DNA of 64,000 nt, taken from positions 2,356,001-2,420,000 of the forward strand of contig NC_092672.1 in the NCBI RefSeq assembly GCF_964355755.1, read 5' to 3'. The position numbers were made by a program, and so were the translations under genes. This DNA comes from Antedon mediterranea. Taxonomy: Eukaryota > Echinodermata > Crinoidea > Comatulida > Antedonidae. Shown here piece by piece: positions 11,705 to 61,428 of this stretch. Under the pieces are notes generated by a model. It saw nothing but the letters and a program-made list of their open reading frames with translations, was not told the origin of the DNA and made no database searches. How positions within the stretch are numbered: the stretch's first letter is position 1; each line of letters starts with the position of its first letter.

Positions 11705-12880
11705 ATGGCGACAGGTAATAAACATAAATGGTGTTTTTGTATTGCATTGAGAAGAACAATTTTAAAATGTTTTTTCTAATCTTCTCTTTTTCCCACTTTT
11801 TAATTTTTTTAGAAATAGATTTTAATGTGGACTTAGTGAACTTTTCAGAATGGTATGATAAAAACAACCTCGTAAGACAGCTAAAGGTTTTATACCACGA
11901 TTTAATTTCAGTAGCAGACATAGACAAAGCCAACACAACGATAGATCTACTGGATGCATTGAGGAAAACAGGACGTTTAAGCCGAGGCAATCTGGAGTTA
12001 CTTTATGAAACGATAAAAATAACACAAACGTTTGGAGCTATCAAAGTTTTTCAACAATCTTTCTTCGAAGTTCAAGAAATACAAATTATTAATTTCACCC
12101 CATATCGACACTGGATTGCAGATTTTGGAAACGAACTACGAAAGGCTGCTGTTAAGAAAATTGATGCACTCTTCAACAATCCTTTAAAGAATTATGAAGA
12201 CTCGTGGAGTATGATTATAGACTTGGAACAAAGACAAATACTTTGTGAAGAAAGAAAAGAAGGGTTTATTAACATTCTTAACAGAATTGGACTGGCATCA
12301 ACGATGAAATGCCTGGCACAAGGTATGTAACAGGAACGTGTTAGCAAACAAATAATTAATTGGAGAAGATTATAAAAATAGCCTATAATATGTGTAAAAC
12401 ATTCACTACGTAACAATTATTGTATATTTGTATTTTTTCTTGTTTGTTATTTAACAGAGGAAGTGCCGAGAAGTAGTAGTAGTGACACAAGAATGCAAAC
12501 AGAGGAAGGTAACTATAGTTATACTGTTATGTAGGACATTAGAGTCAAAATGATTTTATTGGTGAAATCAAACTAGAGAAATTAGTAATAGATTGATAAA
12601 TTAAATGAAATAAAATTAGTGATTTGAAATGTAATTATGGAAAGCGAAATAAACCCAAAATAATTCAATTTACCAATTCATTTTTTAAACTCAAACCATA
12701 ATGTTGTGCAGTTCAACAAAATCTCAATTCACTTTTAACATCCGGTGACGTCCTAGGCAACAAAAGGTAAATTAAATGTTAAGAAGGCAAACTACGCATA
12801 CAATAACCCTTCTTCTATTCCTTATGTTATAATAATGTTTTATCATCAGTATTCTTTAAAGTTAAAACAATATGCATACC
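10309..12880. repeat. Tract nearly identical to 61429-64000
   Basis: Aligned at a constant offset of 51120, I find only one mismatch inside (11688 g versus 62808 a) and one at the left edge (10308). The tract covers the upstream region and first three exons of genes A and C. It may extend further, but the second copy is cut by the window end. Immediately to the left, similarity drops and indels appear. Confidence 0.9.
10815..10914. repeat. 50-bp direct tandem duplication
   Basis: Two adjacent 50-bp copies starting ataagtttataatctt and ending acgagctgag / acgagctaag. The same pair is present at 61935-62034, upstream of gene C, so it predates or was copied with the A/C tract. Confidence 0.95.
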
Positions 12881-15477: not shown

Positions 15478-18160
15478 TTTTACAATCCTATTATACTGTA
15501 TACAATTTATATATAAATATATATAAACATCACCTTTATAAACTCGCAGAACGTAAGTGTCAATTTGGAAATTCCCGTTAGAATTGCGTCTGTAATCTAA
15601 AAATGTCATGCAATCTATAATAAATTTTTAATCAAATCCGGAATAGATTATTTTAAAATTTATAATTTTGTCTTTTTAAGGAATAATTTCAAAGCAACAT
15701 TTTATTTTCTCAAAAGTGTGTTCCTCTCTCCTCCTCTCCCTTCTTGCGTCGAATACGCGTACTTCATCCATATTCATCATCTTCTTCCTAGACGCGCGCG
15801 TACAATCAAAGAGAGCTAGCTAGCTCTCTGCATATCTCTGCATGCTACATACGCGTGTACAGGATATTATACGTAAAATACTGTATAAGTTAGGCAACAA
15901 TTGTTGCTAAGTGATACTATTTGTATTTAATTACAACATGATACTGTGTGGTAGGAATTGACAATTTATATTCTGTGTGTTTATATTGGTATAATTCAGT
16001 TTTTCTTGGTTTTTCTTTATTTTGTATTTTCTACACATCTTTTTTAACAAATACAGCTCAAATACCAGTTCTTTTCCGATATTCTTGAGATAATATTTGA
16101 TTTGTGGTGAATGTGCAATGTATAAAGTCAGCTTAACTGCAGTCTGCCATAGTCATTCATATGTTTTAGTGATATTGTTTTTACTTAGTTTAACATTTTA
16201 CGTAGTATATTTATTTATAATCTATTTTAAATTTGTTCATATTTTGGGGGAAATACATGTTTAATAACGATGGTGGTATATGGTATTGGCAATTTGATAT
16301 AATTTATGTCTGATATAATAGACGAACATTTTTTATATTTCTTGTTTGTACAATTCTTTTGAAATTGGGCAATTTGTACGATGTATGTATATATATTTAT
16401 GATAATTTAATTAATGTAAGCATGTTGATAATATTAATTAGACTCTAAGTTAATAAATGTGCCAAACTGTGCATGGCAAATTTCATATTGCGTTAACTTT
16501 TACTTGATGATGACAAATAAAAGTAATAATGTTGTAATTATACGTTGTTTATCTTTTCTCAGCTTTTTTATGATTGAAAATAATTCATGTGATCAGAGGC
16601 AGATCCAGGGTCACATGATCTACCCTCTCGACACCCTTTATTTTCACCGTCTAAACACACCTTAATAATTATGGTCGCCCAGTCAAGATCTTGGACCCCC
16701 CCCCCCCCCCCCAAAGGGATATGCTCTCCTCAGGCTCTCAAATCTATTATTAGCGTAATTGTTCATAAATTCTGGATCTGCGCCTGGTGATACAGTATGT
16801 ATGTAGCCTAGGCCTACAGTATTTATCTGCGCCTGGTGATACAGTATGTTGGAATACAGTATTTATCACAAATAAATCTGAGACAATCATTTGCAGTGGC
16901 GGATCCAGGATTTTGAAAAAGGGGCCCAGGGCCTAAAGATAAAGTTTTCAATGGATCTAGTTAAAAAAATCGTTGTCGTTTTAACATCAAATTACCCTAT
17001 CACAAATTAAATACGGTCGGTACATTTTCACAGAACACTTATTTTTATTGACGTTATATCACGATTCGCCAATTTGATGATGGACAATAACCAATGAATG
17101 TTTGATACTGAGAGCAAATCGATTTTATAAATTAATAAAATAATAAATATTTCCAAACAATATTCAAAACAGCATTACTGTACTGGTACTAAGATTACCA
17201 TAAAGACGCCAACAGAAAAACAATATACATATTAAAGCTAGCTACCTTCATTTTGTTTACACATCGAATTTGAATATTACAAGAATAAAACATGATTATA
17301 TAAATATGAAGACAATAGTGATAGTGATGAAGAAGCTGTTTAGATTATACAGGTCACGACGAGATACTGATAGTGGTGATCACAACCACGTATATTGTGT
17401 ACAATGCCAGCTACCTACTTGAATATTACAAGATTAAAACATGATTATAATTAAATAATGAATACGATAGTTATGAAGACTGTTGAAGTTACTGAACGAT
17501 GATCAACGACGTATATTTTGTACAGCAATGATGATGCAATGCTACTAGATACATTTGATAACACTGTAAGTATTTTAAACAAATAAAAGGAAAAAATGCA
17601 AAAATATAAACATTATTATCCTGTTTGTATTTACAAATTATTAAACAACAGTATAAACTTAATAAACCGTACGCTAAGTCTTCTAAATCAGCATTGAAAT
17701 TATAAATAATTACAAAGTTTGTTTGCTCATGCAGGTATCAACAAAGCAATACCATGCAGGGGAAAATTTCATTTTTAAATTTTGTTTAGCAATATTGCTA
17801 ATCAAACTGATTTTTTGAGTCGAGAAACATAGTTTTGTATTGTATTTTTTGCTACACAAATTTAAAAATCTGTAGCAAAAAGATTGTTTTGTATAGCTTT
17901 TTGCTATGCTACACTGGCGAAATTATTCCCTGCCATGTATTTCCAATACCACCTTCATAATACCATGTTGTAATATACGTTTACCACGAAGTGCTAATTA
18001 TAATATTAGAAAAACTCTAAAAGACTCAAAATCTATCCACCACCTAATCAAACTGGAAGTTAAAAAAGAAATTTTATTTTTTAATAATTGCACAAATAAA
18101 GGAATGCGTTGCACTGAATGTTTCTTAATGAATAAATTGTATGTAACGCAATAAGTTATC
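15478..18160. repeat. 3' block of the NLR unit, copy A
   Basis: Collinear with 54940-57200, mostly with single-base changes and small indels. Copy A has extra material at about 17060-17180 and 17760-17930. It holds the probable 3' untranslated region, the poly(A) signal at 15619, a poly(C) run near 16698-16712, and MITE-like pieces. The palindrome agagagctagctagctctct lies at 15810-15830. No coding exon seen. Confidence 0.85.
16596..16790. mobile_element. Small hAT-like MITE
   Basis: CAGAGGCAGATCCAGG at the left and its near complement (ctggatctgcgcctg) at the right bound about 195 bp. A related end, cagtggcggatccagg, lies at 16895. Ends of this type are seen in hAT non-autonomous elements. 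I could not confirm an 8-bp target duplication. The copy at about 55973-56160 came with the duplicated block. Confidence 0.45.
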
Positions 18161-33735: not shown

Positions 33736-33828
33736 ATTGGCGACGAGAATATAACGGAAAGCGCGTCAATAAGAAGATTAATCTGTGAGTAAGAATATTC
33801 AATAGTTAATATTCTACAATCTGCTAAG

Positions 33829-35683
33829 ATGAGTACTATAATTGGTAGACTCGATCCGTATGACGGCGAGGCAGAGGACTGGGCCTCCTATGTGGAAAGG
33901 TTAGAGGCATATTTCATGGCAAACGGCGTGGATGACGACAAGCGTGTACCTACGTTACTCAGCTTGATAGGGCCTAAGACTTACGGTCTTCTGAAGAACT
34001 TAGTAGCACCTGATTTACCATCAACCAAAACATTTCCGGAACTTGTGGATTCGTTGGAAAGGCATCTGAGTCCTAAACCTCTAGTTATAGCTGAAAGATT
34101 CAGGTTTCACAAACGTGAGCAGCATGAAGGTGAAACAATCCAGGCCTATTTAGCGGATTTACGACGCCTCACCAAACACTGTGAATTTGGAGCACAGCTA
34201 AATGACGCCCTGCGGGATCGTCTTGTTTGCGGAATTAGGTCAGGCAGTATACAAAAAAGACTGTTGGCTGAGGCAAAGCTTACATTAGCGAAAGCGCTAC
34301 AAATGGCAGTTGCTATGGAAACTGCAACGAAGGATGCTTCGCTACTACAACAACAGTTTAAAGAAGAACCACAGAGTACTGTGAACAAGATAAACGTGAA
34401 ACACTATAATAAGCAGCAATTATGTTATCGCTGCAACAAGGGTGGTCATAAGGCAAACGACTGCCGGTACAAAGAAGTTGAGTGCCATAACTGTAAAAAG
34501 AAGGGACATATCAAGGCTGCATGCCGGAGTAAATCAAAACAAACACCACACCAAACTAAGAAGGGTAAGCGAGTGAATGTTGTTGATGAAGAAGAAGACA
34601 ACCTTCTAGCTATGGTGTATGTTAATAATGTAGACGTTGGGAAATCAGTGAAGATAAAACCAACGATAGATAATATCCCATTGGACATGATAGTGGATAC
34701 TGGCAGTGCACTCTCGTTGATTTCGATAGAAGATTTTGAGAAATATTTTAGGAATACAGACTTGTTGCCGACCAAAGTTCAACTTAGAACTTATACTGGA
34801 GAAGAAGTAAAGACAAAAGGGTATTTGAAGGCCAAAGTAGAATACAACGGACAGAAACACGATGGAAAACTATATGTAGTAGAAAGAGGTGGACCCCCGT
34901 TGTTTGGTCGTCAGTGGTTGACACATATCAAGTTAGACTGGGCCAGCATCTTCACAGTGAAGGCTGACCACAACAAAGCTGATGTACCAGCAATACTGAA
35001 TAAATTTCCAAAACTCTTTAACAAAATTGGAAAGGTGAATGGGGTAAAAGGTAAACTTACCTTACAGGATGGAGCACAACCAGTTTTTATTAAGGCAAGG
35101 AATGTACCATATGCACTTCGACCTGCAGTTGAAGCCGAATTAAGGAACCTCGAGAGTCAGGGAATCACCACCCCGATTCAAACTAGTGATTGGGCAACCC
35201 CAATAGTGCCTGTACCAAAAAGTAATGGAGATGTCAGGTTGTGTGGAGACTACAAAGTTACAGTAAATCCAAAGTTAAAAGTGGACTGCTACCCTCTTCC
35301 AAGAATCGAGGATGTTTTCGCAACCTTAGCGGGTGGACAGAAGTTCACAAAACTAGATTTGAAACAAGCATATTTACATTTAGAGATGGAAGAAGAATCC
35401 AGAAACATGCTGACCATAAATACACACAAAGGGCTATTCCAGTTTAATCGACTAGCGTATGGCATTGCATCTGCTCCTGCCATATGGCAGCGGACCATGG
35501 AACAAATCCTGAATGGTATTCCGGGAGTCCAGTGTCTACTTGACGACATGATTATTACTGGCACTACTCATGAAGAACATTTAAGGAATCTAGAAAAAGT
35601 ATTAAAGGTTCTCAGTGATAGAGGACTGTGCCTCAATGACAAGAAGTGTGAATTCTTCAAAGAAAAGGTCGTTTTTTGTGGTC
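33829..35683 (+). pseudogene. Gypsy gag-protease-reverse transcriptase
   Basis: Single open frame from an ATG 94 bp after the LTR. Residues 1-170 are a gag-like helical region. Two CCHC zinc knuckles are at 199-212 and 219-232, then protease with DTGS at 290-293. Reverse transcriptase has KLDLKQAY (first catalytic Asp about 510) and LLDDM at 570-574 in place of the more common YVDD. The frame is cut at residue ~618 by the RAG1-like transposon; about 44 bp of transposon sequence completes the open frame before a stop at 35727. The rest of pol is beyond 41405. Fused gag-pol without a frameshift resembles the Mag/SURL-type lineage, from memory. Confidence 0.9.
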
Positions 35684-35712
35684 CACGGCAGTTTCCAGCG
35701 AGACAAAAAGTG
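35684..35712 (+). repeat. Left TIR of RAG1-like transposon
   Basis: CACGGCAGTTTC, 4 bp, then GAGACAAAAAGTG. Read as heptamer CACGGCA and nonamer-like ACAAAAAGT, the spacer is 12 bp. Confidence 0.8.
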
Positions 35713-35739
35713 GTGAGCCCTCTATAGTTTCGATGCTCG

Positions 35740-36700
35740 CTTTTTCTTATTTTATGTTATAGAGGGCGCTAGTTTAAATACCCGGAAGACTATTTTTAAT
35801 ACCCTGGTAAAAGAGAGGGATTAACCTGCCAATAGACAGTGTTATAATTGAAAATTTAATGAATATTCATGTTATATTCGAAGAAGAAGGCGTGTAATTG
35901 ATATTCGAAGCCAGCGGTCACTCCGTTTCTCAAGACTTCACGAGATATGAGTATTGAAATCTTACGTCTATTTTGCGACAAAAAACAGTAAAAAATAGCA
36001 GTTTAATTACAGGGTAATGGTGAGGTTATATATTTTTTTTGCAATTTACATAAACATCGGCGCCTAGTCGATGTGAAAATTCAAAAACTTGATAAACAAT
36101 ATTTAAAAAATCTCGCTGACGTCTAATCCAGTTTAATAATTATATACACAGAAAGTCGGGGCCCATTTGCCTGTTTTGCACACGTGGGTGTGCTGCTAAA
36201 GGCCTAGGCCTAACAAAGGTTTGTCACCTAGTACTAGGTTTAAGCCACGAAAAATAAATACTGTATAGGCCTAGGCCTAGAATAATATACTCTTAGTAGG
36301 CCTAGCCCAAGTATATGTCGTTAAGAGGGGAAATCAGCAGGGCCAGGCTTAGTAACAGCTCTATCTAGCTAGGCTAGGCCTAATTTTTTAATATGGTACC
36401 ATCAAGACATAGGTAGGCCTAGGAGGATAGGTATACTTACTAACTAGCTTTCATGAGGGCCTAAGTTATTCTACAGTAGAAAATGTGAAAATATCATAGT
36501 CTATCTTCCTATGGCTTGAATATTACTAAACTATGGCAGCAACAGCATTGCATTTGTAGAATAAAAAATAAAATTTTGATTTTAATTTTGACAGTATAGT
36601 CCTAATAATAATATAATATTTCATCATGTACTTCAATCGCTAGTCCACCATTTTTTTAAATAATGATGATAAATATTTATAATTCAAAAATTGTACTACA
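35740..36700. other. Noncoding left part of the transposon
   Basis: No exon recognised. Contains short taggcctaggc palindromes and a tagagggcgcta motif echoed near the right end (41060-41072, inverted). Probably untranslated or terminal region. Confidence 0.4.
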
Positions 36701-36701
36701 G

Positions 36702-36809
36702 GTTCCAAAAATACCACCAACACAAACAAGTACGACTACTTTATTGATGCAAGTGTGGTTCATAAGAGAATCCATAATAAAGAAGAAGATGGCACTCCGT
36801 CAGATTTAT
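36702..36809 (+). other. Possible exon on the opposite strand of the transposon
   Basis: Between a ttgtactacag acceptor and a gtaagc donor lie 108 bases with two usable open frames. One reads NKYDYFIDASVVHKRIHNKE, protein-like in composition. It is convergent with the transposase gene. No further exon was found and no family is recognised. Confidence 0.3.
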
Positions 36810-36914
36810 CAGTAAGCCTATATTTTCTTTTATTTCGTATTCATTGTCGTGTACTTTATTCTTCTTTTTCTGAAAAATATAAACAGGTTTATTTAATTTT
36901 TGGTGAGCAGGGAG

Positions 36915-39900
36915 CTAAAAAGCACAAATAGTGTAATCAATAAAGTGTAAATTGTTACCAATTTTTCTTCTTTTGGGTTCAACTATTTCTTCTATTATGC
37001 ATGGCTGAGTGGTAATTGCATGTGACCGCATCATGGATGTTAACTGTCCAAGTCTGTCATGCATCCCAGCAACTGTTCTTTTCCTTTTATTAAGCGCGGC
37101 GTGAATAGACTCCCCACCTTGCTCGCTAACCAGTCCCAGACCAAATCTCCAAGCCTTTAATTGGGGAATGACATGTTCCTCGAGCATATGTAATTTTGGA
37201 GATATACTTTTGTTGGTTTTTCGATATTCCTCCATAAAGTCTTTTATGGCTTCATCTGAATTTTTTTTGTAGAAGAGAAAAGAAACAGTTGCAGTGTATT
37301 GTAGGAAAAAAAAACAATGGCATGTCTAAGGAATACCTTGAAAGGTAAGCATAATTACATTACCATTTCCTTGAATATCAACATCTGTGACAGGTTTTGA
37401 ATGATTCAAGTTGTTGTGAACCCTAGAAAATTTTGAAAGGAGTGCATCGTACTTGGTGACCAATTCTTTTACTCTTTTGTCAATTAGCTGAATTTTTCCG
37501 ATAGGAATCTCAGCTTCTTGAATTTTCATTTCATGTAGTGGAGCATTCACTAGTTCATTCCTAACATGGTCCTATTAAAAACAAATATACATTTTAAAAA
37601 CTACAATTTTAATAATTAACAGTTGAAACAATATCAATTAAAAGAATAGTTAATTTACCTGGCAACATTTATGAACATGGTTACCAATAAATGATTTACC
37701 ATGATAGGCTTGCCGTTGGATGCGATTTTTTTGTAGCACACGCTCCAGTGATGTGACAATTGGACCCGTTCCAAATGGAAGCCCATTTTCCATGCATTTT
37801 GTCTGTAAAATAAAATATAATACAAGTTTTGGCTTTAGAGTATGTGTCTGGCAAGACGCATCTATGTCATTTATTGTTTGAGTAACTTACCAGTGACTCA
37901 ATCTCTTCTCTCAATTTGACTATCTTTCCCACATTGGTAATGATGCTACCATCAACACTTCCTTTAAGATAGATTAATGGCATTGCATCCTCCATCTCAG
38001 TCAACTTTAATTTCTTTTCTTCAATCTTTTCTTTGATATCAATTTGTGTTTGGATCTGATGTTGAATTATTTTATCAAACTTTGATTCAGAAGTGTCATC
38101 AAGTTCTCCATTTTTCCTTAGGGAATATATGAGGCAATCTATGCTGTGCGCCTCCGTCTCAAGCATATCAAAGAGCTTCTTGAATATGCCCAATGACAAG
38201 TGCAGGCTAGGAACAGACACCTAAAAGATATAAATTTTAATACCAACAGTGCCATATAATGAAGTAAGTACATTTGTTTCTCTAATATAAAGATAATTAA
38301 AAACAAAACTGATGTACTTACATGATCTACCTCAATTGATACTAAGGGATTATTAACAACGCTCATGGAAACATCCTTAGATCGGCTTTCAATTCCGCCA
38401 TCTTCCATAAACATTCTATAGTTGGCTCTGATTGAAGCCAATGATCGCTGTTTGGCGGGTGGTGCCTTTAATTGCATTTCTGCTTTTGGTTTTTCACAAA
38501 AGAGACAGCAGTATCGAGCTAAAAGTATTCAAATTTTTTCACAATGTTTAAAAATGCTAAAATATGCAGTAATACAGTATAAATAAAATTGGCTTAGAAA
38601 GATTTTGTATAAATTAAATGATGATAAAATAATTTAATAGTTTACCATTTGGTCCATTTAATCCATAGAGTTTTGTTAGATACTCATAGTCCCCAAAACA
38701 GAAAACTCTCAGTGTGTAATTGCTGAAAGAAATTATACATATATTTTTATTTTATTACTTCTATACGCATCCACATAATTGTTAAGTTGATATACTAGTT
38801 GTATTCTTACCGCCATTTTTCCCCGTTCAAAGCAACAACTTGGTGGGCCACTTCCGGAAGAGTCCGGTTAATATTAAACATCATGTCAGGGGCATCAAAT
38901 ATTAGTACGACGATGATGTTGTTAATTGAATTTGGTTTGGCGAGGCTACATATCTGTACCTCAAATTTGGTACTTCCACCTCCCTTATCCCCGCCAAACT
39001 TTATCCAAACCTCGTTATTATTGGGAGATAGGTTGTTCAGTCTGTAAAAAAATTTAGTAAATATTAATTCAGTTTTTAATTAATTTCTTTTAACTTTTAT
39101 TTCCATAGCAAATCCATAGGAACAAAAGTAAAGTCCTAAAAAGTAAGTTCTACACTTTGTAAGCACATATTAAAATTTAACTTCAGCGTACCTTGAGTGT
39201 TCATCAAGATATGAAAATACAACTTTTTTAATGTTTTTCAGTTTGACAGTAGGCGTTGATCTTAATTCTATCCCGTCTGGGGACGTCTCAGACCTAAAAC
39301 ATAGCATTTCCATTGTGGATTCAAAATAATCCCCAATGAGATCATTTTGCCGCTGCCGCATCCTTTTCTCTGATGGTATTGTCCCCTTCTCCACATATCT
39401 AGTACATAAAAAGGATTAATAATGTAGTCTCGCTTTATTACTAGACATACTTGACTGTGTCTAAAATGCCTGTATTCATGCATGGTTTTATTTAATCACA
39501 TAATTGTTTGTTTACCTTCTTAGCTTTCGTAGCTGGTTCCATGCCAGATGGCAGTCTGACACCATTGCCAGAGCCTTATCTGTATCTATAGACGAAGTTG
39601 ATGCTATGTTGGCTGCTTTTAAGACCGCTTGACTCGTATGTTTGGCTGAGTACACTTTTTGATGGAAATCACCAGCCTCACTATTGCCAACTGATTTTAT
39701 GATGCTGCTGATGCTATTTGCTCGTCTTGAAACAGTTCGAGAACTGGCCTTATCACTTGAGACTTTGGTGTTTGGTATGATAGCAATCTTTGCTGGCTGT
39801 AGATAAGAATTGTATTTGTATGTTTTATGCTAACAATTCTGTTATAATAATATTAATCTACTTTTTATAACATGCAATATGATAATTACAGAATTTGTTT

Positions 39901-40740
39901 TAAAGCACTCACCCGACCATTTGTTGCAATCAGCATTTCCTTACTTTTCTTTAGTTGATTGTAAACAACTTTTTCTGCAAACGTTTGTATTGTTTGGGAG
40001 ACATGACTATCTTCTAGTGATTTCTCTAACACTGATACAGCTTTTGAAACATTATGATAAACCACTTCTTTAGTTGTCTGGTGTTCACAAATATGTCTCT
40101 GATGTTGAGAGTATTTTATGAACTTATTGCACGAGCATTGTAATTCTAGTGATTTTAGAGACTCTATTACAATTTGGGAGGCGGGTTTAAATTCCAGCAT
40201 GTGCATTGGCTTTGCGCACACAAGACATGAACATACGTTAACATGGAGGGTACTAAACAAATTATACATACAACTAGAACAATAGTGATGTGAACAGTTT
40301 GACTCAAGACTGTTGAAAGACAAAATCGAGTTGCATATTTGGCAAATGAAAGGTTCAGAATTGATTTTGTCATTGACTGTAAATTTTGATGGAATAACGT
40401 CACATTCTGTTTCAGAAAATAATGTGTTGAGTTTTACTTGTTTTAGTCTCTTACCTGGTTTTGACTGTTCTGATAATAAATAACATGTGAAACATGATTG
40501 TTGTGTGTGTTGTCTCCAGATGTACCTTTGAGTTGTGCTAACCTTGTTATAGCTTGAAAATTGACAGTTCTTGCAAATGAATGGTGGATGTACATCTTTG
40601 TTTTCATGGGTTAAATCGATATTTAAAAATGTCAGGACGCTATCTTTTACTTTAGTTAGGTCAAATTTTCGCTGATTTCGTGTTAACTTGACACCACATA
40701 CACGACATAAATTACTCAATGCATATGTATGGTACTCCAT
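36915..40740 (-). CDS. RAG1-like transposase, ten exons, 956 aa
   Basis: Exons (minus): 40740-39913, 39796-39516, 39398-39192, 39041-38811, 38722-38646, 38518-38322, 38220-37891, 37802-37659, 37571-37337, 37255-36915. All GT/AG introns, phases agree, no stops, 2871 nt. The exon 9 donor could instead be a nearby phase-1 GT. N-terminus like RAG1: LCRVCG (11-16), HPPFICKNC (51-59), WRQH...C83..C86; RING C133, C136, C149, H151, C154, C157, C172, C175, then a C2H2-like finger. DDE core: FGGDKGGG with D457, FGDYEYL with D527, CCLFC (545-549), LHLSLG, SPKLHMLEEHV (862-872) and SEQGGESIH with E892 (or E888). Order matches RAG1/Chapaev transposases. Likely binds the TIRs and cuts and joins DNA in the nucleus. 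AATAAA at 36893-36888. Confidence 0.85.
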
Positions 40741-41363
40741 TTCACAAGACAATAAATAACAGTAACATACCACATACAGTCAATGCAAAACCAATACACA
40801 ATTCTTTAAAAAATATATAATTAACTTTGCCCTAGGCCTATTTTTACCTATAAAATCACTGGAATTTTGAACAGAAATAAGTCAATTTCAAATTTAGCTC
40901 AAATCAATTTGAAAGTAGACGTCAGCCTGAATTTTGAGCTAAATAAAGAATAAAGTCTCCGCTTTCACTTGGAATTAACGGTGTTGCTCGAAAAAATTGC
41001 AGAGATTTGCTATCAGACGATCAAAAGCTTGAACTTACCGCGACGATAAACTTTCGCCGTGAGGGCGCTATTTATGTATATTTTCAGCTTTTGAAACTAT
41101 CGCAAACATCGTTAAAATTTCGCTTTTTTAATAATATTTTTTAATCCTAGACAATTTTCCCTAATACAAAATACAATAATAAAGCAAACACTGTAAGATT
41201 CGAGGAAAACTTTATTAATTTGTCATTGTAAGACTGTATTTACTTCGTATGATACACTCTCTGTTTATAGCTAGCTAATGTAAACATTTCGCTCGATGTT
41301 GGTGGGCTATAAATAGCTGCTCAAGGCTCGCGCCAGGCGTATCAATCAAAAGCGCGTTGTAAA

Positions 41364-41401
41364 CACTTTGTGTCTCGGATATCGCGTTTGAAACTGCCGT
41401 G
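41364..41401 (-). repeat. Right TIR of RAG1-like transposon
   Basis: Inward from 41401: CACGGCAGTTTC, 13 bp, then GAGACACAAAGTG (12 of 13 identical to the left block). Read as heptamer and nonamer-like ACACAAAGT, the spacer is 21 bp. Confidence 0.8.
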
Positions 41402-41405
41402 GGTC

Positions 41406-42071
41406 ATGTGATAGATAAAAATGGATTACATAAAACTGAGGACAAGATTGAAGCTGTTAGAAATGCTCCCAAACCTACAACCGTAAGTGAACTCAGATCA
41501 TTCTTGGGATTGATCAACTATTACCATCGATTCCTGAAAGACTTAGCTACAGAAATTCATCCGTTGAATAAACTGTTAGAGAAAAAGGAAAAATGGACAT
41601 GGACAAAGGATTGCGAGATGGCGTTTAATAAAGCCAAACAACTTGTGACTGCAAATAATGTGTTAACACATTATGACCCAACATTGCCTGTTAAGCTAGC
41701 TACAGATGCTTCTCCATATTGTCACACAACATTGATGGAGTCGAACGACCAATCGCCTATGCATCGAGGACCTTGAGCGCAGCGGAGAAGAATTACTCTC
41801 ACATTGATAAGGAAGCTCTTGGCATAGTATGGGGAGTAAAGAAATTTACCAGTTACTTGATTGGTCGAAAGTTCACCTTAGTTACAGACAATAAACCACT
41901 TACGTACATCTTCAATACATCGAGGGCTATTCCTGCCACAGCAGCTGCAAGATTAACTCGCCAGGCAATTTACTTGTCAGGATTCAATTACGAGATTGAA
42001 TACAAGAAAGGTGAAAACCACAAAAATGTAGATGGACTTTCATGACTACCATTAGCAAATACTGAAGCTAA
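41406..42071 (+). pseudogene. Gypsy pol: RT thumb/connection and RNase H, broken
   Basis: Continues pol after the transposon: HVIDKNGLHKTEDKI, then SFLGLINYYHRFLKD (RT connection) and the RNase H motifs TDAS, IDKEALGIVWG and TDNKPLTYI. A small deletion shortly after TDASPY (near 41720) shifts the frame, and a TGA lies at 42043-42045 in the otherwise continuing frame. The segment stops at the Harbinger-like MITE starting at 42072. Confidence 0.9.
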
Positions 42072-43322
42072 GGCCAAATAAAAAAATATACTTGTTAAGC
42101 GTCACACCCTCATAAATTTTCAGGGGCGGGGGGACGGTTTTTTTTTTTTTTTTACTTTTTATAGAGGTATATTTTTGCGCGGTGGACGTTTTGCCCCACT
42201 TTTTTAGGACGAAACGTCAAACTTTTAAAATGCGAAACAGAACAAAATTGACTATGTATGAAATATTATTGCTTATGACAAAATTGAGTTTTGTATTGTT
42301 TATATCCAGACGTAATTAAAACATTAAATTTAATTGCCACCAAGCGAAATTGTAGGCCCTAGGCTAACTAATCCGTCCAAGGTGCTACCCCAACCTCACT
42401 CATCGGCCATCTGCCGTCTCTCGCTCGACTCATCTATCCAGGAAATTCCCTATCGCGAGAAGCATGATTTGGTGGTCTCAATAATACTAAATAGTGGGCT
42501 GATTTATAGTTTGAAAACAGCTTACGGCATTTCTTAAGTGAATTTTTATTCAACGTATTCATTCTTCTTTGATGAATCCTTTGCCAATTGCTGTGTAAAT
42601 CAGTATTTAAAGTTGTGATGCAAAAAGTGTATGCAATTATTCCAGGCAGGTAAACCAGGCATAAGGAAACCCATCGCCCAACAGGACCTCGTGGTGTGCC
42701 GATCTCGAGATCATCGTAAACAAAATTGGTAGAGTCCATTATGTATGGGGTGTTTCCTATTTACGAACCTATAAAAAAACGCGCTTCGACCACTGTGTAG
42801 GCAAAATATTTATTTCGTTAAATCCCTAAATTGATAATCGCGTATTCTGTAATCACGTGACTGATGATGTAATCCTCAGCGACGTACTAAATGCACATGA
42901 TTTAATGTGTTGGGGAAAAAGCTTGCTGTTTACCACATTACATGATTCACGGTGCTATTCGCGTTTCCTTTACGTAAATCGGCGGCGTGTAAATGAAACA
43001 ATTGTTTTCACCAATTTGCCGTTGTCGACATAGAGCGATCGGCGGCTAGCGTTGTCTAAGCTAAAAAGTATGTATTTTTTCAAAAATTACACTAGCCTAA
43101 CAAACATTTGCTAGTTTTGAAATTTTCAAATAGCAATTATGAAGAATCTACTAGCAAAATGCTAGTTTGCTAGCGTGAATTTCGAGCCCTACTCTGGAGC
43201 TGGGTCGGGCCGCTGAACTTTCCGTTGTATATCGGTAAAAAAAAAATAAAAATAAAAAGAGAGGCGGCTGGATAATCAGGAGCGGGCGGTGACGCTTAAC
43301 AAGTATGTTTTTTTATTTGGCC
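42072..43322. mobile_element. Harbinger-like MITE inserted in gypsy pol
   Basis: Inverted ends GGCCAAATAAAAAAA followed by atacttgttaagcgtcac, with TAA duplicated at 42069-42071 and 43323-43325. GGCC termini plus a TWA duplication fit PIF/Harbinger. At 1251 bp without a recognisable transposase it is non-autonomous. Because the gypsy frame is visible on both sides, the boundaries are well fixed. Confidence 0.85.
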
Positions 43323-43325
43323 TAA

Positions 43326-44649
43326 TGCTGAGGATCCGGTTGAGGTGTTTCACACTATGCAGTTTCAACCACTTCCTGTAACAAGTGCCCAGGTCAAGAT
43401 TGAGACATTACACAACCCAACAATGTCAAAGGTGTATGATTACACAATGAAGGGTTGGCCTAAGAGCTGTGATCCGGAATTTGAACCATTCCATAGACGA
43501 CGTGATGAACTGTCAATTTTTGATGGATGTTTGCTATGGGGTACGCGAATCATTGTTCCACCAAAATTCAGAGCAAGAGTACTTGACGAGTTACATGAAG
43601 GACATTTGGGCATTGTAAAAATGAAGTCCTTGGCAAGGAGCTATGTTTGGTGGCCGAGAGTGGATGCTGACATAGAGAAATTAGCAAAAACCTGTAGTGG
43701 ATGCCAAAAGACACTGCATGAACCTCAGAAAGCACCCCTACATCCATGGCAGTGGCCGAGCAGTCCGTGGGAACGTATCCACATCGACTATGCGGGACCA
43801 ATAAACAACATAATGTATCTGGTAGTTGTGGATGCACAATCCAAGTGGCCTGAGGTATTGCCTACGACCACAGCGACATCAAGCAAATCAATAACTCTGT
43901 TGCGCGATTTATTTGCGAGGTATGGACTACCAAAGCAGTTGGTATCGGACAATGGTCCGCAATTTGTGTCAGAAGAATTTGAAATGTTTCTCAAGAATAA
44001 TGGTATTAGACACATCAAATCAGCACCATACCACCCAGCAACCAATGGGTTAGCAGAACGTTTTGTGCAATCATTTAAAGGAGCACTCAAATCGGCAAAA
44101 GAAGGAAACGACACAAAACAAAAACTTGCAAACTTTCTATTAGCATATAGAAATGGCCAACACAACACAACTGGAATATCTCCAGCAATGATGTTTATTG
44201 GAAGACAACTACGCACCAGACTAGATTGCATTATACCTGACTTACGTCAAAAAGTTGAAAATAACCAGGAAAGCCAGAGAAAACCAACTAGCGAAAAGAA
44301 GCTTAGAGAATTCAAAGAAGGAGACAAAGTGTGTGTTCGTGACTATAGATCAAAGAGTCAGAAGTGGATAGTCGGAATTATTCATAGGAAAACTGGAAAG
44401 TTGTCATATGAAGTCAAAGTTGGACCAGACATGATTTGGAAAAGACACATTGATCAAATCTTAAGCAGTGGCTTAACACTAGATCTAGAGACACCTCCAG
44501 ATATAGATCCTGTTGATTTAGAACCAGCTATCTCAGCAACACCAACACCACCACCGGAAATACAACAACCAGTTGAGATTCCACAACAACCACCACCAAG
44601 GAGATACCCACAGAGGAACAGGAAACCACCTAACAGACTTGATTTATAA
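43326..44649 (+). pseudogene. Gypsy integrase region
   Basis: Open frame of about 440 codons. It has a histidine/cysteine zinc-binding region (LHEGHLGI ... CSGCQ), then the catalytic core with IDYAG (Asp), VSDNGPQF (Asp) and NGLAERFVQ (Glu). A C-terminal domain follows (KWIVGIIHRKTGKLSYEV) and a Pro-rich tail ending in a stop at 44647-44649. The integrase itself looks intact, but it can no longer be made as part of one pol protein because upstream pol is broken. Confidence 0.9.
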
Positions 44650-50780: not shown

Positions 50781-53700
50781 TTGTAATAATTTCTTTCTTT
50801 TTAAAATAAAATATAGATTTTGATGTGGACTTAGTGAACTTTTCAGAATGGTATGATAAAAACAACCTCGTCAGACAGCTGAAGGTTTTATACCACGATT
50901 TAATTTCAGTAGCAGACATAGACAAAGCCAACACAACGATAGATCTTCTGAATGCATTGAGGAAAACAGGACGTTTAAGCCCAGGCAATCTGGAGTTACT
51001 TTATGAAACGATAAAAGTAACCCAAACGTTTGGAGCTATCAAAGTTTTCCAACAATCTATCTTTGAAGTTCAAGAAATACAAATTATAAATTTCACCCCA
51101 TATCGACACTGGATTGCAGATTTTGGAAACGAACTACGAAAGGCTGCTGTTAAGAAAATTGATGCACTCTTCAACAATCCTTTAAAGAATTATGAAGACT
51201 CTTGGAGTATGATTATAGACTTGGAACAAAGACAAATACTTTGTGGAGAAAGAAAAGAAGAGTTTATTAACAAGCTTAACAAAATTGGACTGGCATCAAC
51301 GATGAAATGCCTGACACAAGGTATGTAACAGGAACGAATTAGCAAACAAATCATTAGTTGGAGAAGATGTGAAAACTCGCAGGGCATACTACAAATAATT
51401 ACGAGGAAAACCCAATCTAAAAAAATAATTACAACAATCAATCAATTGTTTGTTCGCCACTTATCATTGGCTGAATATGTAGCAAAACTTGTTTGGGCAT
51501 TATTTGAATTTGGACTCCAATAAAATGGTTTAGGTTTTTTTCATTTCAGTACAGAAATTTAAGTTTTCTTCTTCAGTGATAAGTGATAGATTTGAAATTG
51601 TGTTTGTCGCCCTCTATATGCAAGTGCGTTGCTAAAAGGGAATTTTGTGAAAACGTCCTTAATTGCAGTATAAACTTGACTACTTAAATGGGAATATTTC
51701 TACAATGAAAACTGTATTTCTTTATATTCGAATTGTAGTTTTATACTATGAAATTTATAATTATTCTGAACTATTATTCTAAACTATTTATCTATTCTTA
51801 TTTATCATTAAACAGTAAATGTACCTAACACAAGTAAAACAGAACAAGGAACGCAAAAAGAGTTTAAATCAGAAACAGGTTCGTTATTAAAATGTAATGT
51901 ATACATTTTCACCCAAAAGAAGTTTATTATGCGGTAGAATAATTGTTGTAAATTCAGTTTAATTCTAATTACAATAATTATAAGGTCGGTTTGATAACAA
52001 TATTATGACACTTATTATTTATTTCTTTATAAAACAGGAGATGTGTCGACTAATAGTAACAAAGAACAAGAAACGCAGAATAAGGTTGAGTCAGAAACAG
52101 GTTAGTTATTAGAATGTATCTATAATTTTTCTCCCATAAAGACGCTTTTAGGTAGAATATTTATCGTTGTAAATTCTGATTTATTAAGTAAAGTCATAAA
52201 CAAGCATGAAACATGTAATTATAATTAGGATTAGTATGATATATAATTAGAATATAGAATATATATTCCAACAATCATATTCCAACAATTTAATTGTCCT
52301 CAGTACAGTCCGGTATGAACAATTAATTCTTTTATTACAGCAAAATTAAGAAATTTGCAACTAAAAATGAAACTTACATTGTTATCGTTTTCTTGACTGA
52401 GTTAGTTTGATTTCTACATCTACAATATTTGATTTGTGATAAATTCATTTTTCGGTTTGCTGCCCTCTCTTGAGCATATTTCCATTTTTTTGTTTCTGAC
52501 GATAGAAAGAAAATGTGTTGGTCGCCCTCTATAAACCCAATAATTTACAAAAAAAATACGATACAAATATTTATACGACAGAGTTTGGTATAACTGATAA
52601 CAATCTTTAATAACTTTAGAATTTTATTTTTTACTTACTTAAATTTATATGTTAGAATATTATTATGTGTTATGATATGGATTCTGAAATAAAAGTGAAT
52701 TGAATTGAATTTAGGTAAATCATTTCAAATTGCTATAGCCTAATAACAAATTTCAATTTCATTTACCTATAATGACATTATCTAGGCCTGTAAAATAAAC
52801 AACCAAATCACTATAATTGTTAACAACTTAGGCCTTACTAAAATAAACTAAATATAAATAGATAAAATTAATATCAACAACAATAATAATATATATAATG
52901 CTTAATAGAATATGATTAATTATAAGATTCATTCTATTAAATAACTTTCTTTCTTTTTAGAAAAGATAGAAACATATCTGATTCAAATACAAAAGGACAA
53001 GTGCAGCCAGGCCAGTACATTTACACCTGCAATAATGAATGATAGATACAAAGTTGACATTTCACAGATGTTTACCGATATGGAATTACTAACGGAAAGT
53101 GAAAACAATAAAGAAACCAGCAAACCAACAACATTGGAAGAAGTGATTGATGTTATCAGTTCTAAACCTGGATGTAGAGCTCTCATAGAAGGGGAAGGGG
53201 GTATTGGAAAAACTACTATATTAAGACATTTATCATACACATGGGCTACTAATGGGCCTAATCAATATACTAATGGGCCTAATCAATCTAATAATGTCTT
53301 TAAAGGTAAAATTGTATTTCTTTTATATCTAAGAGATTTGGAAAAAGATGCCGATATCTTCGATTTAATTATAAAGCAACTGGACATGACAGATTTCAAT
53401 GTAAAGACAGATCTCCCAAACGATTCACGGTTGATTAGAAAATTTATAAAGAAACATGACACTAAAGTTGTGTTGCTACTAGACGGATTAGATGAATTAA
53501 GAGTTAATAATCAAATCGTTATTAGTCTTTTCAGAAAAGACAACTTTAAAAACAGTACTGTGATACTTACATCACGACCAGAAAACATAGATAAATGTAT
53601 AAAAGAGTGTAATGTACATGTAAGAGTTAAGGGATTTAATAAGAAGAGCATAGGTAAGTATATTGACAAACATTTTACGTATTTTGGAAGACCAGCATTG

Positions 53701-54939
53701 GGAGAATCCCTTAGAATCGAATTGGATATTGACACTTATCCTGTTGGGCGAAAACATCCTGAAGCATATTCAATGTGCAAAAACCCAATGCTACTTCTTA
53801 CAATCTGTATGCTATGGGAGGATAATCAAAATCTTCCTAGTGATAATACAGCTCTTTTCAAACAACTATTTCGTAGTATTTTAAATCAGTTTAACAAAAT
53901 AGAAAATTGTCAAAAGATTACTAAATTTGAAAACATTCCAGCGGAATATGTAAATTCTATGATTTTGTTAGGAAAATGTATGTATGCTAACTTGAAAGTA
54001 AATAAACTTTCAATAACTAAACAAGATTTGACTGATAAACATTCGAACACAAATATAGTTGACCTAGCCCTAAAACTTGGATTTGTTTACAAAGAAGCAC
54101 CACTTTCAAAATTTAATTGTGAAAGAATATTTATGCCTCTTCACAAATTGATCGTAGAATCATTGGTGGGATTTTACTTGTCTAAATTATTTGAAAGTGA
54201 AAATATAAAGGATGAATGCTCAGATGTAAGACAATTACTAATACCATTGGGTGATGATGAATTGGATGAAATAAAAAGCGAGTATTTCAATGTTGCCAGA
54301 CATTTTGCACTTGGTTTTCTTGATGCTGCAACTGTTGGTTATTATTTAAAGCAATATATCACAAAACATTTCCCATTAAGAATGAGAAGTAGAATTCGGA
54401 AGTTTTTTTTTGGCATTAAGATTACAGACAAGGAACGATTTATTGCGAACATTTTAGACATTAAACCTTTTGAACCTTATCGATATGTTGGTGTTAGTAT
54501 TCGGAATGTATCACGTGATGTATTTAATAACTTTCTTACAGAATTTTCTCACGAACAAGTTCAATTAGCATTAGAATATCTCGATATCTCTGGCAATAAC
54601 CTTCACAACATTGATGTTAATTCAATGTCTTCATTACTCATTATGTGTCCTAAGCTGAGGTTGCTTGACATGAGTCATTGCAATCTATCAGGTGACGTCA
54701 TCAATCACTTGGGTACAGAATGTTCTCTCAAACAAGTTCAATTGGCATTACGTTCTCTCCGTATCTCTGGTAATAACTTTCACAACATTGATGTTAATTC
54801 ATTGTCTTCATTACTCATTATGTGTCCTAAGCTGGATTGGCTTGACATGAGGCATTGCAGTCTATTAGGTGAAGTAATCAATTACTTGACCGAAGAGTGT
54901 TCAAACAGAGGCATCAATTTTTATACAGTTTATATATAA
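50673..54939 (+). CDS. NLR gene B: DED-DED-NACHT-LRR receptor
   Basis: Five coding exons at 50673-50682, 50817-51320, 51816-51878, 52038-52100 and 52961-54939. Phase-1 GT/AG introns throughout, 2619 nt, 872 aa. Exon 1 encodes Met-Ala-Thr. Exon 2 carries two DED-like domains nearly identical to gene A. Exons 3 and 4 are 63 nt each and related to each other, a duplicated linker exon. NACHT: Walker A GEGGIGKT at 291-298, Walker B LLLDGLDE at 385-392, TSRP further on. Compared with gene A there is an insertion with a doubled TNGPNQ between the P-loop and the next strand. Two 59-residue LRR modules plus a partial one close the protein, one fewer than in gene A. AATAAA at 55020. Probably a cytosolic innate immune sensor; ligand unknown. 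Confidence 0.9.
54561..54925 (+). repeat. 177-bp LRR modules in gene B
   Basis: gttcaattagcattag...ctttcacaac...cattactcattatgtgtcct style units repeat at 177-bp spacing, two full and one partial. The first unit's 5' part (around 54500-54560) is diverged. Highly similar to gene A modules. Confidence 0.85.
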
Positions 54940-57205
54940 TTATATATAAACATCACCTTTATAAAACTCGCAGAACGTAAGTGTCATTTTGGAAATTCTA
55001 AAAATGTCATGCAATCTAAAATAAATCTTCAAAAAAATCCGGAATAGATTATTTCCAAATTTATAATATTGTCTTTTTAAGGAATAATTTCAAAAGCAAA
55101 ATTTTATTTTCTCAAAAGTGTGTTCCTCTTCTCATTGCGTCGAATACGCGTACTTCATCCATATTCATCATCTTCTTCCTAGACGCGCGCGTACAATCAA
55201 AGAGAGCTAGCTAGCTCTCTGCATATCTCTGCATGCTACATACGCGTGTACAGGATATTATATTATATATATAAATACTGTATAAGTTAGGCAACAATTG
55301 TTGCTAAGTGATATTATTTTTATTTAATTACAACATGATACTGTATGGTAGGAATTGACAATTTATATTCTGTGTGTTTATATTGGTATAATTCAGTTTT
55401 TCTTAGTTTTTCTTTATTTCTTTTTTAACAAATACAGCTCAAATGACCAGTTCTTTTCCGATATTCTTGAGATAATATTTGATTTGTGGTGAATGTGCAA
55501 TGTATAAAGTCTGCATAACTGCACTGTCAGTCATTCATATGTTTTAGTGATATTGTTTTTACTTAGTTTAACATTTTACGTAGTAGATTTATTTATAATC
55601 TATTTTAAATTTGTTCATATTTTGGGGGAAATACATGTTTAATAACGATGGTGGTATATGGTATTGGCAATTTGATTTAATTCATGTCTGATAATAGACG
55701 AACATTTTTTATATTTCTTGTTTGTACAATTCATTTGAATTTGGGCAATTTGTACGATGGATGTATATATATTTTATGATAATTTAATTAATTAATGTAA
55801 GTATGTTGATAATATTAATTAGACTCTAAGTAATAAATGTGCCAAACTCTGCATGGCAAATTTCATATTGCGCTAACTTTTACTTGATGATGACAAATAA
55901 AAGTAATAATGTTGTAATACGTTGTTTATCTTTTCTTTTCTTTTGTGTGATTGAAAATAATTCATGTGATCAGAGGCAGATCCAGGGTCACATGATCTAC
56001 CCTCTCGACACTCTTTATTTTCACCGTCTAAACACGCCTTAATATGGTCGAACCAGTCAAGATCTTGGACCCCCCCCCCCACTCCCCCAAGGGATATGCT
56101 CTCCTCTCAAATCTATTATTAGCGTAATTGTTCATAAATTCTGGATCTGCGCCTGGTGATACAGTATGTATGTAGCCTAGGCCTACAGTATTTATCTGCG
56201 CCTGGTGATACAGTATGTTGGAATACAGTATTTATCACAAATAAATCTGAGACAATCATTTGCAGTGGCGGATCCAGGATTTTGAAAAAGGGGCCCAGGG
56301 CCTAAAGATAAAGTTTTCAATGGATCTATTTAAAAAAATCGTTGTCGTTTTAACATCAAATTACCCTATCACAAATTAAATACGGTCGGTACATTTTCAC
56401 AGAACACTTATTTTTATTGACGTTATACTTGTAGGCTACTGGTACTAAGATTACCATAAAGACGCCAACAGAAAAACAATATACATATTAAAGCTAGCTA
56501 CCTTCATTTTGTTTACACATCGAATTTGAATATTACAAGAATAAAACATGATTATATAAATATGAAGACAATAGTGATAGTGATGAAGAAGCTGTTTAGA
56601 TTATACATGTCACGACGAGATACTGATAGTGGTGATCACAACCACGTATATTGTGTACAATGCCAGCTACCTACTTGAATATTACAAGATTAAAACATGA
56701 ATATAATTAAATAATGAATACGATAGTTATGAAGACTGTTGAAGTTACTGAACGATGATCAACGACGTATATTTTGTACAGCAATGATGATGCAATGGTA
56801 CTAGATACATTTGATAACACTGTAAGTATTTTAAACAAATAAAAGGAAAAAATGGAAAAATATAAACATTATTATCCTGTTTGTATTTACAAATTATTAA
56901 ACAAAAGTATAAAAACTTAATAAACCGTACGCTAAGTCTTCTAAATCAGCATAATTATAAATAATTACAAAGTTTGTTTGCTCATGCAGGTATCAACAAA
57001 GCAATACCATGTATTTTCATGTGTTTACCACAAAGTGCTAATTATAATATTAAAAAACTCTAAAAGACTCAACATCTATCCACCACCTAATCAAACTGGA
57101 AGTTAAAAAAGAAATGTTATTTTTTAATAATTGCACAAATAAAGGAATGCGTTGCACTGAATGTTTCTTAATGAATAAATTGTATGTAACGCAATAAGTT
57201 ATCGA
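54940..57205. repeat. 3' block of the NLR unit, copy B
   Basis: Collinear with 15478-18160, including the poly(C) run (56068-56080), the agagagctagctagctctct palindrome and the MITE-like piece at 55973-56160. Shorter than copy A by two deletions. No coding exon seen. Confidence 0.85.
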
Positions 57206-58974: not shown

Positions 58975-60780
58975 TATTATTTTAACAAACCTTTAAACAA
59001 ATTGATTCAATCCATTCAAAGTCGCAACTCTTTATGGCTCTGGGTTTGTTGATGTACTACGCATGCGCATGTACGTGTGAACGGATTGTATAATTAGGGC
59101 GTTATAACGCCGTATTATTATAAAATAATTTTTTCTTTGGTGGAAATCAGCCACGGTAGAATACCCACCTAATTCAAAAAATACAATGATTATTTTTGGT
59201 GATCTTTTTCCAGAGCCTCTGAGCACTTTAAAGTTTGGATACAGATGATGTAAGAGTTGATGGACGTATCTAAAAACTGAATTGTATCTAATCCACACCT
59301 TAATTATATAAACAATGGATCTGATTGATCAAATTTTAGCACTTGATTATTTTTGTTAACTAGTATAATATTTCAATAGTAAAATTTGATTATTTAAGAT
59401 GACACCTACATCATTTAATTTTTATGATTTTTTAAAAGCATTATTCTTTTAAAATACAACTCAATTACAGTGAATTTTACAGAGCAACGAACGAACGTTA
59501 ACCTTAAAAATGCCCTGATCTCGGTAAATGGCCACTAACATTTTACAGAGCAACGTGAACGTTAACCTTAAAAATGCCCTGATCTCGGTATATGGCGACT
59601 AAATTTTTTTACAAATGTTTTCCTCTTGGCTGGATAACTTAGCATAGGCTTAAAGTTTTATGTATTATATAGGCCTATAGGTTTCCTTCCACACCTACTT
59701 TGTTTTTATTAATTGTTATCGTACGTGTTTATATAATTATTATTTTATGTATTTTTAATATAATGTGTGGAGAATATTTACTGAATATTTATTGAATATT
59801 GAATAAACGAATTGAATTGAATGTGTAGGTTCAAGTCTCAATTAAATTGGGTTGACCTAAAAAATACACACACAAATATATACACTATATACACTATATA
59901 CACTATATACACTCAATGAGATGATAGGATATCATAGCAAACAAATGCAGAATGGAATAATTACAGATTTCGAAAATTATCAAAGAATTCTTAAATTATT
60001 ATCATCCTAAGCAGAAGCCCTTTCCACGCATCAATGAAGATTAGTTTTTAAATTCAATTCACATGTATTTAGTCATTATTATTATTATTATTATTATTAA
60101 ATAAATATTATTATTTTTAATTACAATTTCAGTAGCCTATATAATTGATGGCAAAGGTCCTTCATAAAGAAGTTAACAATTCTGTTTTTGCAGGACACTT
60201 TTACATAAAAAGACCAAACAGGGTAATCTTCACATAATAGTAGGCCTACATTTAATATAAACGCGAAGCGGACGAACAATAGTCAATAGATTCAAATAAA
60301 TATTACCTTGAATTCGTGCGTAATAGAATACCAAGTTCAGTAATAACAACTTCCAACAAATACTTATATCGCTAAGTCAATTGTCTTCCTGTTTATGAAA
60401 TATATGGTGTTTTGGAATTGTATTGTTTTCAATTAACTATGTACCAGAAAATTATTACTAGAAAAATTGTTTATAGGCCTACCTTTTGTAGATAAGAAAT
60501 TACACTTAGCCGAAAGTGAACAAGAGATCAAGGTTCAATAACATTTTCTGTGTAATAGACCTAATTCTAACATGTATGATAGTGAAGTGTAATGGTGCTT
60601 TCTCAACGTTTAAGTTCGAATCTCTGCAGTTGCTGTTTGATGGCCTGAACAATTGCATTTTTTAATGAGTCAAACTAAAGTGAAACGTTCTTTAAAACCA
60701 AAGAAACAATAATACATTATTACCAAAAGGTTAGTCTAGGTTCTAGACTGAACTTATTAAAAAAATAAATATTTTGGTAT
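58975..60780. repeat. Intergenic block of the NLR unit, copy 2
   Basis: Collinear with 3235-5030. Differs by a local ~55-bp duplication around 59480-59590 (taccttaaa...ctcggtaaatgg repeated) and lacks the double palindrome seen at 4.0 kb. No exon recognised except the module relic near its end. Confidence 0.85.
60585..60680 (-). pseudogene. Exon-like module, copy 4 (broken)
   Basis: Diverged copy with taagttcgaatctctgcagt. Small indels destroy the minus-strand frame. Confidence 0.4.
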
Positions 60781-61428
60781 ATATGGCGTTTCATACGTAA
60801 AATACATAGGCTTGTATTTTCAGACAAAAATAAGGCAAGAGACAAACATAAAAAAGACAATAAATACAGACTTGGGACAAGTCTACCAAAACGTACTTAT
60901 CTCATTATACGATGGCCAAAAAGAAGGGCAGAATGGAATTAATTACAGAATTTCAATGAAGATTAGTTCGTTTGATTCAAAGTAGCCTACAGGTCATTAA
61001 ATATTACGAAAATCAAACAAGTATAGAATCCGACAACAGCAATGTTAACTTGGAATCATGCCAAGCCGTACATCAAATTACTCCGCTTCCCTAATACTTC
61101 TTAGTTTCATTTCATGAAAGGTTTTTAAATTGTTTTAAGATTGTATGTTTCTCTTTCTTTAATTAATAATGTTGCCAGCAATAGCCAAAAATGTAATACA
61201 AGCATTGAAACATATTAATGATTCAATAGAATTTGTTTAAATATTATTACATCTCTAAGTTGGATCACGACCACATTGACGTGCAGTTCCACGGACTTGT
61301 TTGAGAAATTCAACGTAGAATAGTAGAATTATTCATTTACTACTACATTATACTGATATATAGAAATGATAACAATTAGTTCAAAGGATTCTGTATATTA
61401 GTTCTAAGAATAATTTCTGTGAAATTTT

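Follow-up and report, generated by a model that had tools for sequence, protein, structure and literature searches.

The stretch of DNA analysed here, referred to as the window, comprises 64,000 nucleotides of the crinoid Antedon mediterranea (contig NC_092672.1, positions 2,356,001 to 2,420,000 of the forward strand). A 5,718-bp DNA transposon, with a Chapaev-type transposase gene that starts with a RAG1-type N-terminus, spans positions 35684–41401 of the window. The element is bounded by perfect 12-bp terminal inverted repeats (TIRs) of the sequence CACGGCAGTTTC (12/12 matching), which begin with CAC and give it CAC...GTG termini. The left TIR (35684–35695, plus strand) lies on the 3′ side of the gene and the right TIR occupies 41390–41401 on the minus strand. 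Both were located by TIR alignment and a search of the window for the motif with up to two mismatches, which returned four places (chance mean 2.1), the perfect copies being found only at the two ends of the element. Comparison of the flanks revealed a 4-bp target-site duplication (TSD), GGTC, at 35680–35683 and 41402–41405.

The transposon interrupts a Gypsy-type retroelement on the plus strand (33793–35683 and 41402–44649), recognised through Pfam matches to RVT_1 (3.4e-23), a zinc knuckle and rve (1e-14). The reverse transcriptase frame is located in the left flank and the integrase frame on the right. Reconstruction of the empty site from 150 bp per side and a single GGTC resulted in one open frame over the junction (FCGHVIDKNG), and the insertion is precise because this joining restores the retroelement frame. 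The host retroelement itself is decayed, with frames broken downstream of the insertion: the frame changes near 41.7 kb and comes to an end near 42.0 kb. No pair of long terminal repeats of at least 150 bp was seen around it in a self-comparison of the window, which covered the best 45 matches of at least 150 bases. The arrangement would reflect a single insertion into the Gypsy-type element, now decayed.

Transposase gene and Chapaev identity

The transposase gene is encoded on the minus strand by 11 exons, giving a product of 937 amino acids without a stop or frameshift in the 937 codons. All ten introns are of the GT-AG type. P0001, an uncharacterised Antedon mediterranea protein (isoform X2), is identical to residues 383–937 (555 residues); it therefore agrees with the downstream splicing and is the source of the last exon. 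Its C-terminus, KRRKIEKEE, is reached through the tenth intron (36958–36870), which leads to a short exon at 36869–36856. The first-pass annotation of this DNA had described an element with ends, a TSD and a spliced open gene over 35684–41401, all of which are present. Its gene of ten exons and 956 amino acids is close but has to be corrected, as the comparison with P0001 supports 11 exons; the ten-exon reading, 947 amino acids long as rebuilt, was dropped, and this 947-residue version is the one used in the Pfam scan, the phmmer search and the homologue search. The start methionine lies immediately upstream of CRVC, which matches its position in the homologues P0002 and P0003. The poly(A) signal that had been proposed is found on the gene strand as AATAAA at 36860, overlapping the end of the coding region, and again at 36834.

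Exon 1 (39913–40740, 276 amino acids) holds the N-terminal zinc or “Chapa” region, the RING finger and then a C2H2-like finger, as placed by RAG1 profiles. Exon 2 (39516–39796) contains the beginning of the Pfam DUF1280 match (protein residues 300–510) and exon 3 (39192–39398) the start of P0001 at M383. The first predicted catalytic Asp, D457 (GGDKGGG), is followed by KPNS in exon 4 (38811–39041); the second, D527 (FGDYEYL), resides in exon 5 (38646–38722) and the putative zinc ligands of the C(2)C motif, C546 and C549, in exon 6 (38322–38518). Homologue alignment places an LHLSLG block in exon 7 (37891–38220) and the RQAYHGKSFIGNHVHK block in exon 8 (37659–37802). The gene model continues with exon 9 (37364–37571), exon 10 (36959–37255), in which alignment positions the ligands H857 and H862 and the catalytic E883 (HMLEEHVI...SEQGGES), and exon 11 (36856–36869), which encodes EKEE and the stop as in P0001. 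All of these exons are read from the minus strand. Within exon 7, the LHLSLG block is followed by a charged, coiled-coil-like insertion (residues ~640–720; 37891–38220, minus strand), which precedes the GPI/RQAYHGK block. This insertion is found in most homologues, with a poorly conserved sequence. The non-coding arms extend over 35684–36855 (3′, with the AATAAA at 36834) and 40741–41401 (5′).

The core of the protein matches Pfam DUF1280 (PF06918) at 1.4e-17, with 64.5 bits against a cut-off of 25. In PMC3985635, this family is assigned to Chapaev transposases and stands in one small clade with RAG1 in the classification of that paper. The hallmarks of Chapaev elements given in PMC4079192 are a 3–4 bp TSD, 5′-CAC/GTG-3′ ends and the motifs C(2)C, LH and H(4)H. 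All are present here, in the form of the 4-bp TSD, the CAC/GTG ends, C546/C549, LHLSLG and H857/H862, and the first-pass annotation's choice of Chapaev as a comparison is right. The Chapa zinc region followed by a RING also corresponds to the arrangement of the RING-bearing Chapaevs. By alignment, D457, D527 and E883 are the predicted catalytic Asp-Asp-Glu (DDE) residues.

The homologue search returned 20 proteins, none of which is RAG1. DUF1280 is carried by 19 of the 20 in precomputed Pfam annotation, P0019 being without any domain. Besides Antedon, the hosts include sea stars, a brittle star, sea urchins, a sea cucumber, Hydra and others. The gene is more than a chance assembly of frames, since 98% of the 947-residue version can be aligned with a protein from a sea star (34% identity, E 5.5e-154). 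In a tree of 18 rows the window protein groups with sea-star and brittle-star proteins at a support of 100/100, its nearest relatives being unnamed DUF1280 proteins of Asterias amurensis (P0002, P0003), Amphiura filiformis (P0004, P0008) and Acanthaster planci (P0006). The two Asterias proteins have the same domain order as the window protein, to which they are 34% (P0002) and 31% (P0003) identical over 98%, so that about two thirds of residues differ; the RING is above the Pfam cut-off in P0002 only. When nine homologues were scanned with Pfam, all nine passed the DUF1280 cut-off, two the RING cut-off (P0002, P0018) and one that of RAG1_imp_bd (P0014, 1.2e-8), with matches below this cut-off in P0011, P0018 and P0020. 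A second homologue search with the exon 1 family alignment returned just two proteins, P0020 and P0021, perhaps due to the 275-residue first row fixing the length window.

Relationship to RAG1 and predicted activity

The N-terminal zinc region (residues 12–86; 40483–40707, minus strand) contains the motifs CRVC, HPPFICKNC and W..H...CFTC and aligns with the RAG1 N-terminus in RAG1 profiles. The RING finger (residues ~133–177; 40210–40344, minus strand) was located with phmmer and a RAG1 hidden Markov model (HMM). A profile of exon 1 and seven of the 20 homologues matched residues 99–387 of full-length RAG1 at 4e-31, and a RAG1 N-terminal fragment of solved structure was matched at 2e-15. Outside RAG1, no RING protein among the best 60 of 150 matches did better than 4e-9. 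Since dependence on the homologues was to be avoided, an HMM was also built with 14 vertebrate RAG1s as its sole members. With this model, the window protein scored 35.5 bits, compared with at most 6.5 for 200 shuffled versions. The signal is made up of three collinear stretches, each of modest strength, with E values of 0.006, 0.006 and 5e-7 among ~220 sequences. With the protein alone, phmmer matched the RAG1 RING at E 0.0016. Judged by these sequence comparisons, the N-terminus is homologous to RAG1 99–387, including the zinc ligands, the RING and the following finger, and the RAG1-type N-terminus of the first-pass annotation stands.

The same applies to its claim that the DDE landmarks follow the RAG1 order. 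In profile–profile alignments of the core, D457, D527 and E883 fall on D600, D708 and E962 of RAG1, H857/H862 on H937/H942 and C546/C549 on the CTLC pair, with E962, H937 and H942 numbered from chain 9jpu. D600/D708/E962 and H937/H942 are, respectively, active-site and zinc residues of RAG1. In these comparisons with RAG1, the core scored 42.0 against 25.4 for the best of 60 controls (one reversed, 59 column-permuted), and the C-terminal part scored 24.6, which none of 100 permuted controls reached (maximum 19.2). Full-length profile–profile comparisons reached probabilities of 98.9% and 99.5%, both with the N-terminus included.

A number of results weigh against a complete Chapaev with a RAG1-type N-terminus. 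The window protein alone matches the Pfam RING at E 0.37 only, and the Pfam RAG1 N-terminal family is not matched by it (E up to 1). The public P0001 model is without the first 382 residues, which include the RAG1-type N-terminus; for this reason the full-length form is only predicted as an expressed product. The RAG1-only HMM of the core finds no reportable domain in the 937-residue protein and scores P0001 at -1.4 bits, with 8.0 for the best homologue (P0016) and 1.7 for the best shuffle. The hhalign probability is only 45% for the core alone and 6% for the C-terminal part. Permuting columns also makes for a lenient control, and the limits of the C-terminal stretches were chosen by hand.

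The RAG profile consisted of vertebrate RAG1 only. In its source search, 8,000 candidates received scores and 120 of the 277 matches were listed; the profile is regarded as being without RAGL or Transib sequences because the named rows among the matches listed are vertebrate. When the core profile was compared with the PDB, six matches came up at E 10 or below, the best at E 0.03. RAG1 is not among them, and they were put down to chance or to coiled-coil similarity with the insertion that follows LHLSLG. A phmmer match of residues 527–557 to the region of the second Asp of RAG1 (-1.7 bits) is insignificant and was treated as a lead rather than evidence. Remote homology of the core with RAG1 is likely because the aligned DDE and zinc residues are collinear with those of RAG1, a relationship that shows up in profile–profile comparison alone; the core itself is Chapaev, not RAG1. 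The proposal of the first-pass annotation survived the profile search, one of the two tests it had named, with Chapaev (DUF1280) and RAG1 N-terminal matches.

According to PMC7204232, RAGL transposons carry convergent RAG1L and RAG2L genes and almost always a 5-bp TSD. The arms of the present element measure 1,172 bp (3′) and 661 bp (5′), and the longest frames within them 57 and 65 amino acids, respectively. An 82-residue plus-strand frame (36683–36931) extends from the 3′ arm beneath coding exons. No second gene was seen, there being no Pfam match above cut-off in the four arm frames scanned, a negative that rests on a Pfam scan of frames without a RAG2 profile. The sub-cut-off matches of one arm frame (best E 0.027) were taken as chance, and a second gene split into many tiny exons within such arms is unlikely. 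The RAG1-type N-terminus with a RING, and the DDE and zinc ligands collinear with those of RAG1, speak for a RAGL element (ProtoRAG, TransibSU) in the direct line to vertebrate RAG1. This identification is nonetheless very improbable for an element with a DUF1280 core in which the RAG1 core HMM finds no domain, no frame above 65 residues in its arms, no RAG1 among its 20 homologues and a TSD of 4 rather than 5 bp. The length of its TSD, the genes it carries and the affinities of its core make the element a Chapaev and keep it outside the RAG1/RAGL/Transib line. Its first-pass title, “RAG1-like transposon”, was overstated, given a Chapaev core of remote resemblance to RAG1, the 4-bp TSD and no second gene seen.

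A domesticated host gene of Chapaev origin that has lost its mobility would account for the intact reading frame and for the single Antedon protein cluster found in the homologue search. This is improbable as perfect 12-bp TIRs and a TSD still flank the gene, inside a retroelement. More weight is due to a dead copy, with a frame that is open merely through young insertion or with missense damage, which is a tentative but appreciable possibility: activity of the element is a prediction, and the surrounding retroelement is decayed. Conversely, 937 codons are free of stops and frameshifts, and the element keeps those catalytic and zinc residues at which the alignment of the 20 proteins shows little or no variation. 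The locus almost certainly holds a complete, autonomous-looking cut-and-paste Chapaev transposon (CMC/CMCT assemblage), the transposase of which starts with a RAG1-type N-terminus. The sequence shows the ends, the TSD, the intact 11-exon gene, the domain order and the DDE and zinc ligands; the element looks complete, as had been proposed, and is apparently intact, with transposition as a predicted activity.

For mobilisation, the transposase would bind its own CAC-ended repeats. Cleavage would fall to an RNase H-like active site of D457, D527 and E883, which a putative C546-C549-H857-H862 zinc site would stabilise, in an enzyme with a zinc-stabilised insertion; cut-and-paste integration would be staggered by 4 bp. 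If RAG1 is a guide, the zinc/RING region at the N-terminus may aid dimerisation and could possibly serve as an E3 ubiquitin ligase, with the transposase or host factors under its control.

Neighbouring genes

Genes for innate immune receptors of the NACHT and leucine-rich repeat (NLR) type flank the mobile elements on both sides. A related pair of NACHT and leucine-rich repeat frames is located on the plus strand at 13312–15477 and 52945–54939 (NACHT 1.6e-22 and 2.2e-19), with 177-bp tandem repeats. Three closely similar plus-strand frames lie at 11728–12330, 50810–51328 and 62848–63450, with 95.9% DNA identity between pieces. The first of these, the only one scanned, matches a death effector domain at 6.4e-8 (33.2 bits, below the Pfam cut-off of 35.9), and the three frames are possibly N-terminal exons of NLR-type receptors. 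The self-comparison also detected a 3.2-kb duplication at 97.9% identity (9669–12880 and 60776–64000) and another with pieces at 81, 90 and 98% (13218–17756 and 52777–57011). These large duplications suggest a tandem NLR cluster.

Comparison with known systems

The origin of the N-terminal zinc/RING half of RAG1 is still debated. It has been attributed to fusion with an N-terminal element in PMC8355894, and in PMC4411706 to inheritance from a shared ancestral transposase, followed by losses. A complete-looking echinoderm Chapaev that has this half intact, and of which the ends and the target site are known, lends itself naturally to testing the inheritance view, and could be used to ask what effect the RING region has on transposition. 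P0001, the only public protein of Antedon that was found, is without the RAG1-type half. The bearing on the origin of V(D)J recombination that the first-pass annotation had seen exists indirectly; the argument itself is already found in PMC4411706, from 2015. It is conceivable, if rather doubtful, that this is a functional crinoid Chapaev in which one protein retains both the RAG1 non-core parts (N-terminal zinc fingers, RING and the finger after it) and a DDE core with its C2/H2 zinc ligands, whereas echinoderm RAG1L is reported to be without the RING. If true, it would provide an experimentally usable outgroup, and the RAG1 non-core region would go back to a regulator of the ancestral transposase instead of having been fused on later.

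Vertebrate RAG1 resembles the transposase in its N-terminal zinc ligands, RING and following finger, and in the same order of D/D/E and C2/H2 zinc ligands. It differs in its core, which is only remotely similar, and in acting with RAG2, on recombination signal sequences and with 5-bp TSDs. RAGL/ProtoRAG and Transib elements, as described in the literature, share with the element the CAC ends, an RNase H-like DDE transposase and the C(2)C and H motifs; their TSD is 5 bp, whereas that of the element is 4 bp, and RAGL has the second gene that was not seen here. Echinoderm RAG1L is reported, in PMC7204232, to be without the RING dimerisation domain, whereas a RING is carried by the echinoderm Chapaev described here and, by Pfam, by P0002.

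The N-RAG-TP of Aplysia likewise has RAG1 N-terminal-like sequence within a mobile element. It is made entirely of such sequence in the account of PMC8355894, whereas the Antedon element fuses it to a full transposase. CAC ends and a TSD within the 3–4 bp range are common to the Antedon element and the Chapaevs of PMC4079192. Literature searches, some of them broad and with lists of limited length, in a collection that lacks most subscription journals, found no report of this element in Antedon, which is no proof of absence. Chapaevs with a Chapa domain and RING were described by Kapitonov and Koonin in 2015 (PMC4411706) and have the same order of zinc “Chapa” region, RING and DDE core; two RING-bearing subgroups are published. 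The Antedon element differs from these published RING Chapaevs by its crinoid host and divergent sequence, and is a specimen of an already described arrangement rather than a new ancestor.

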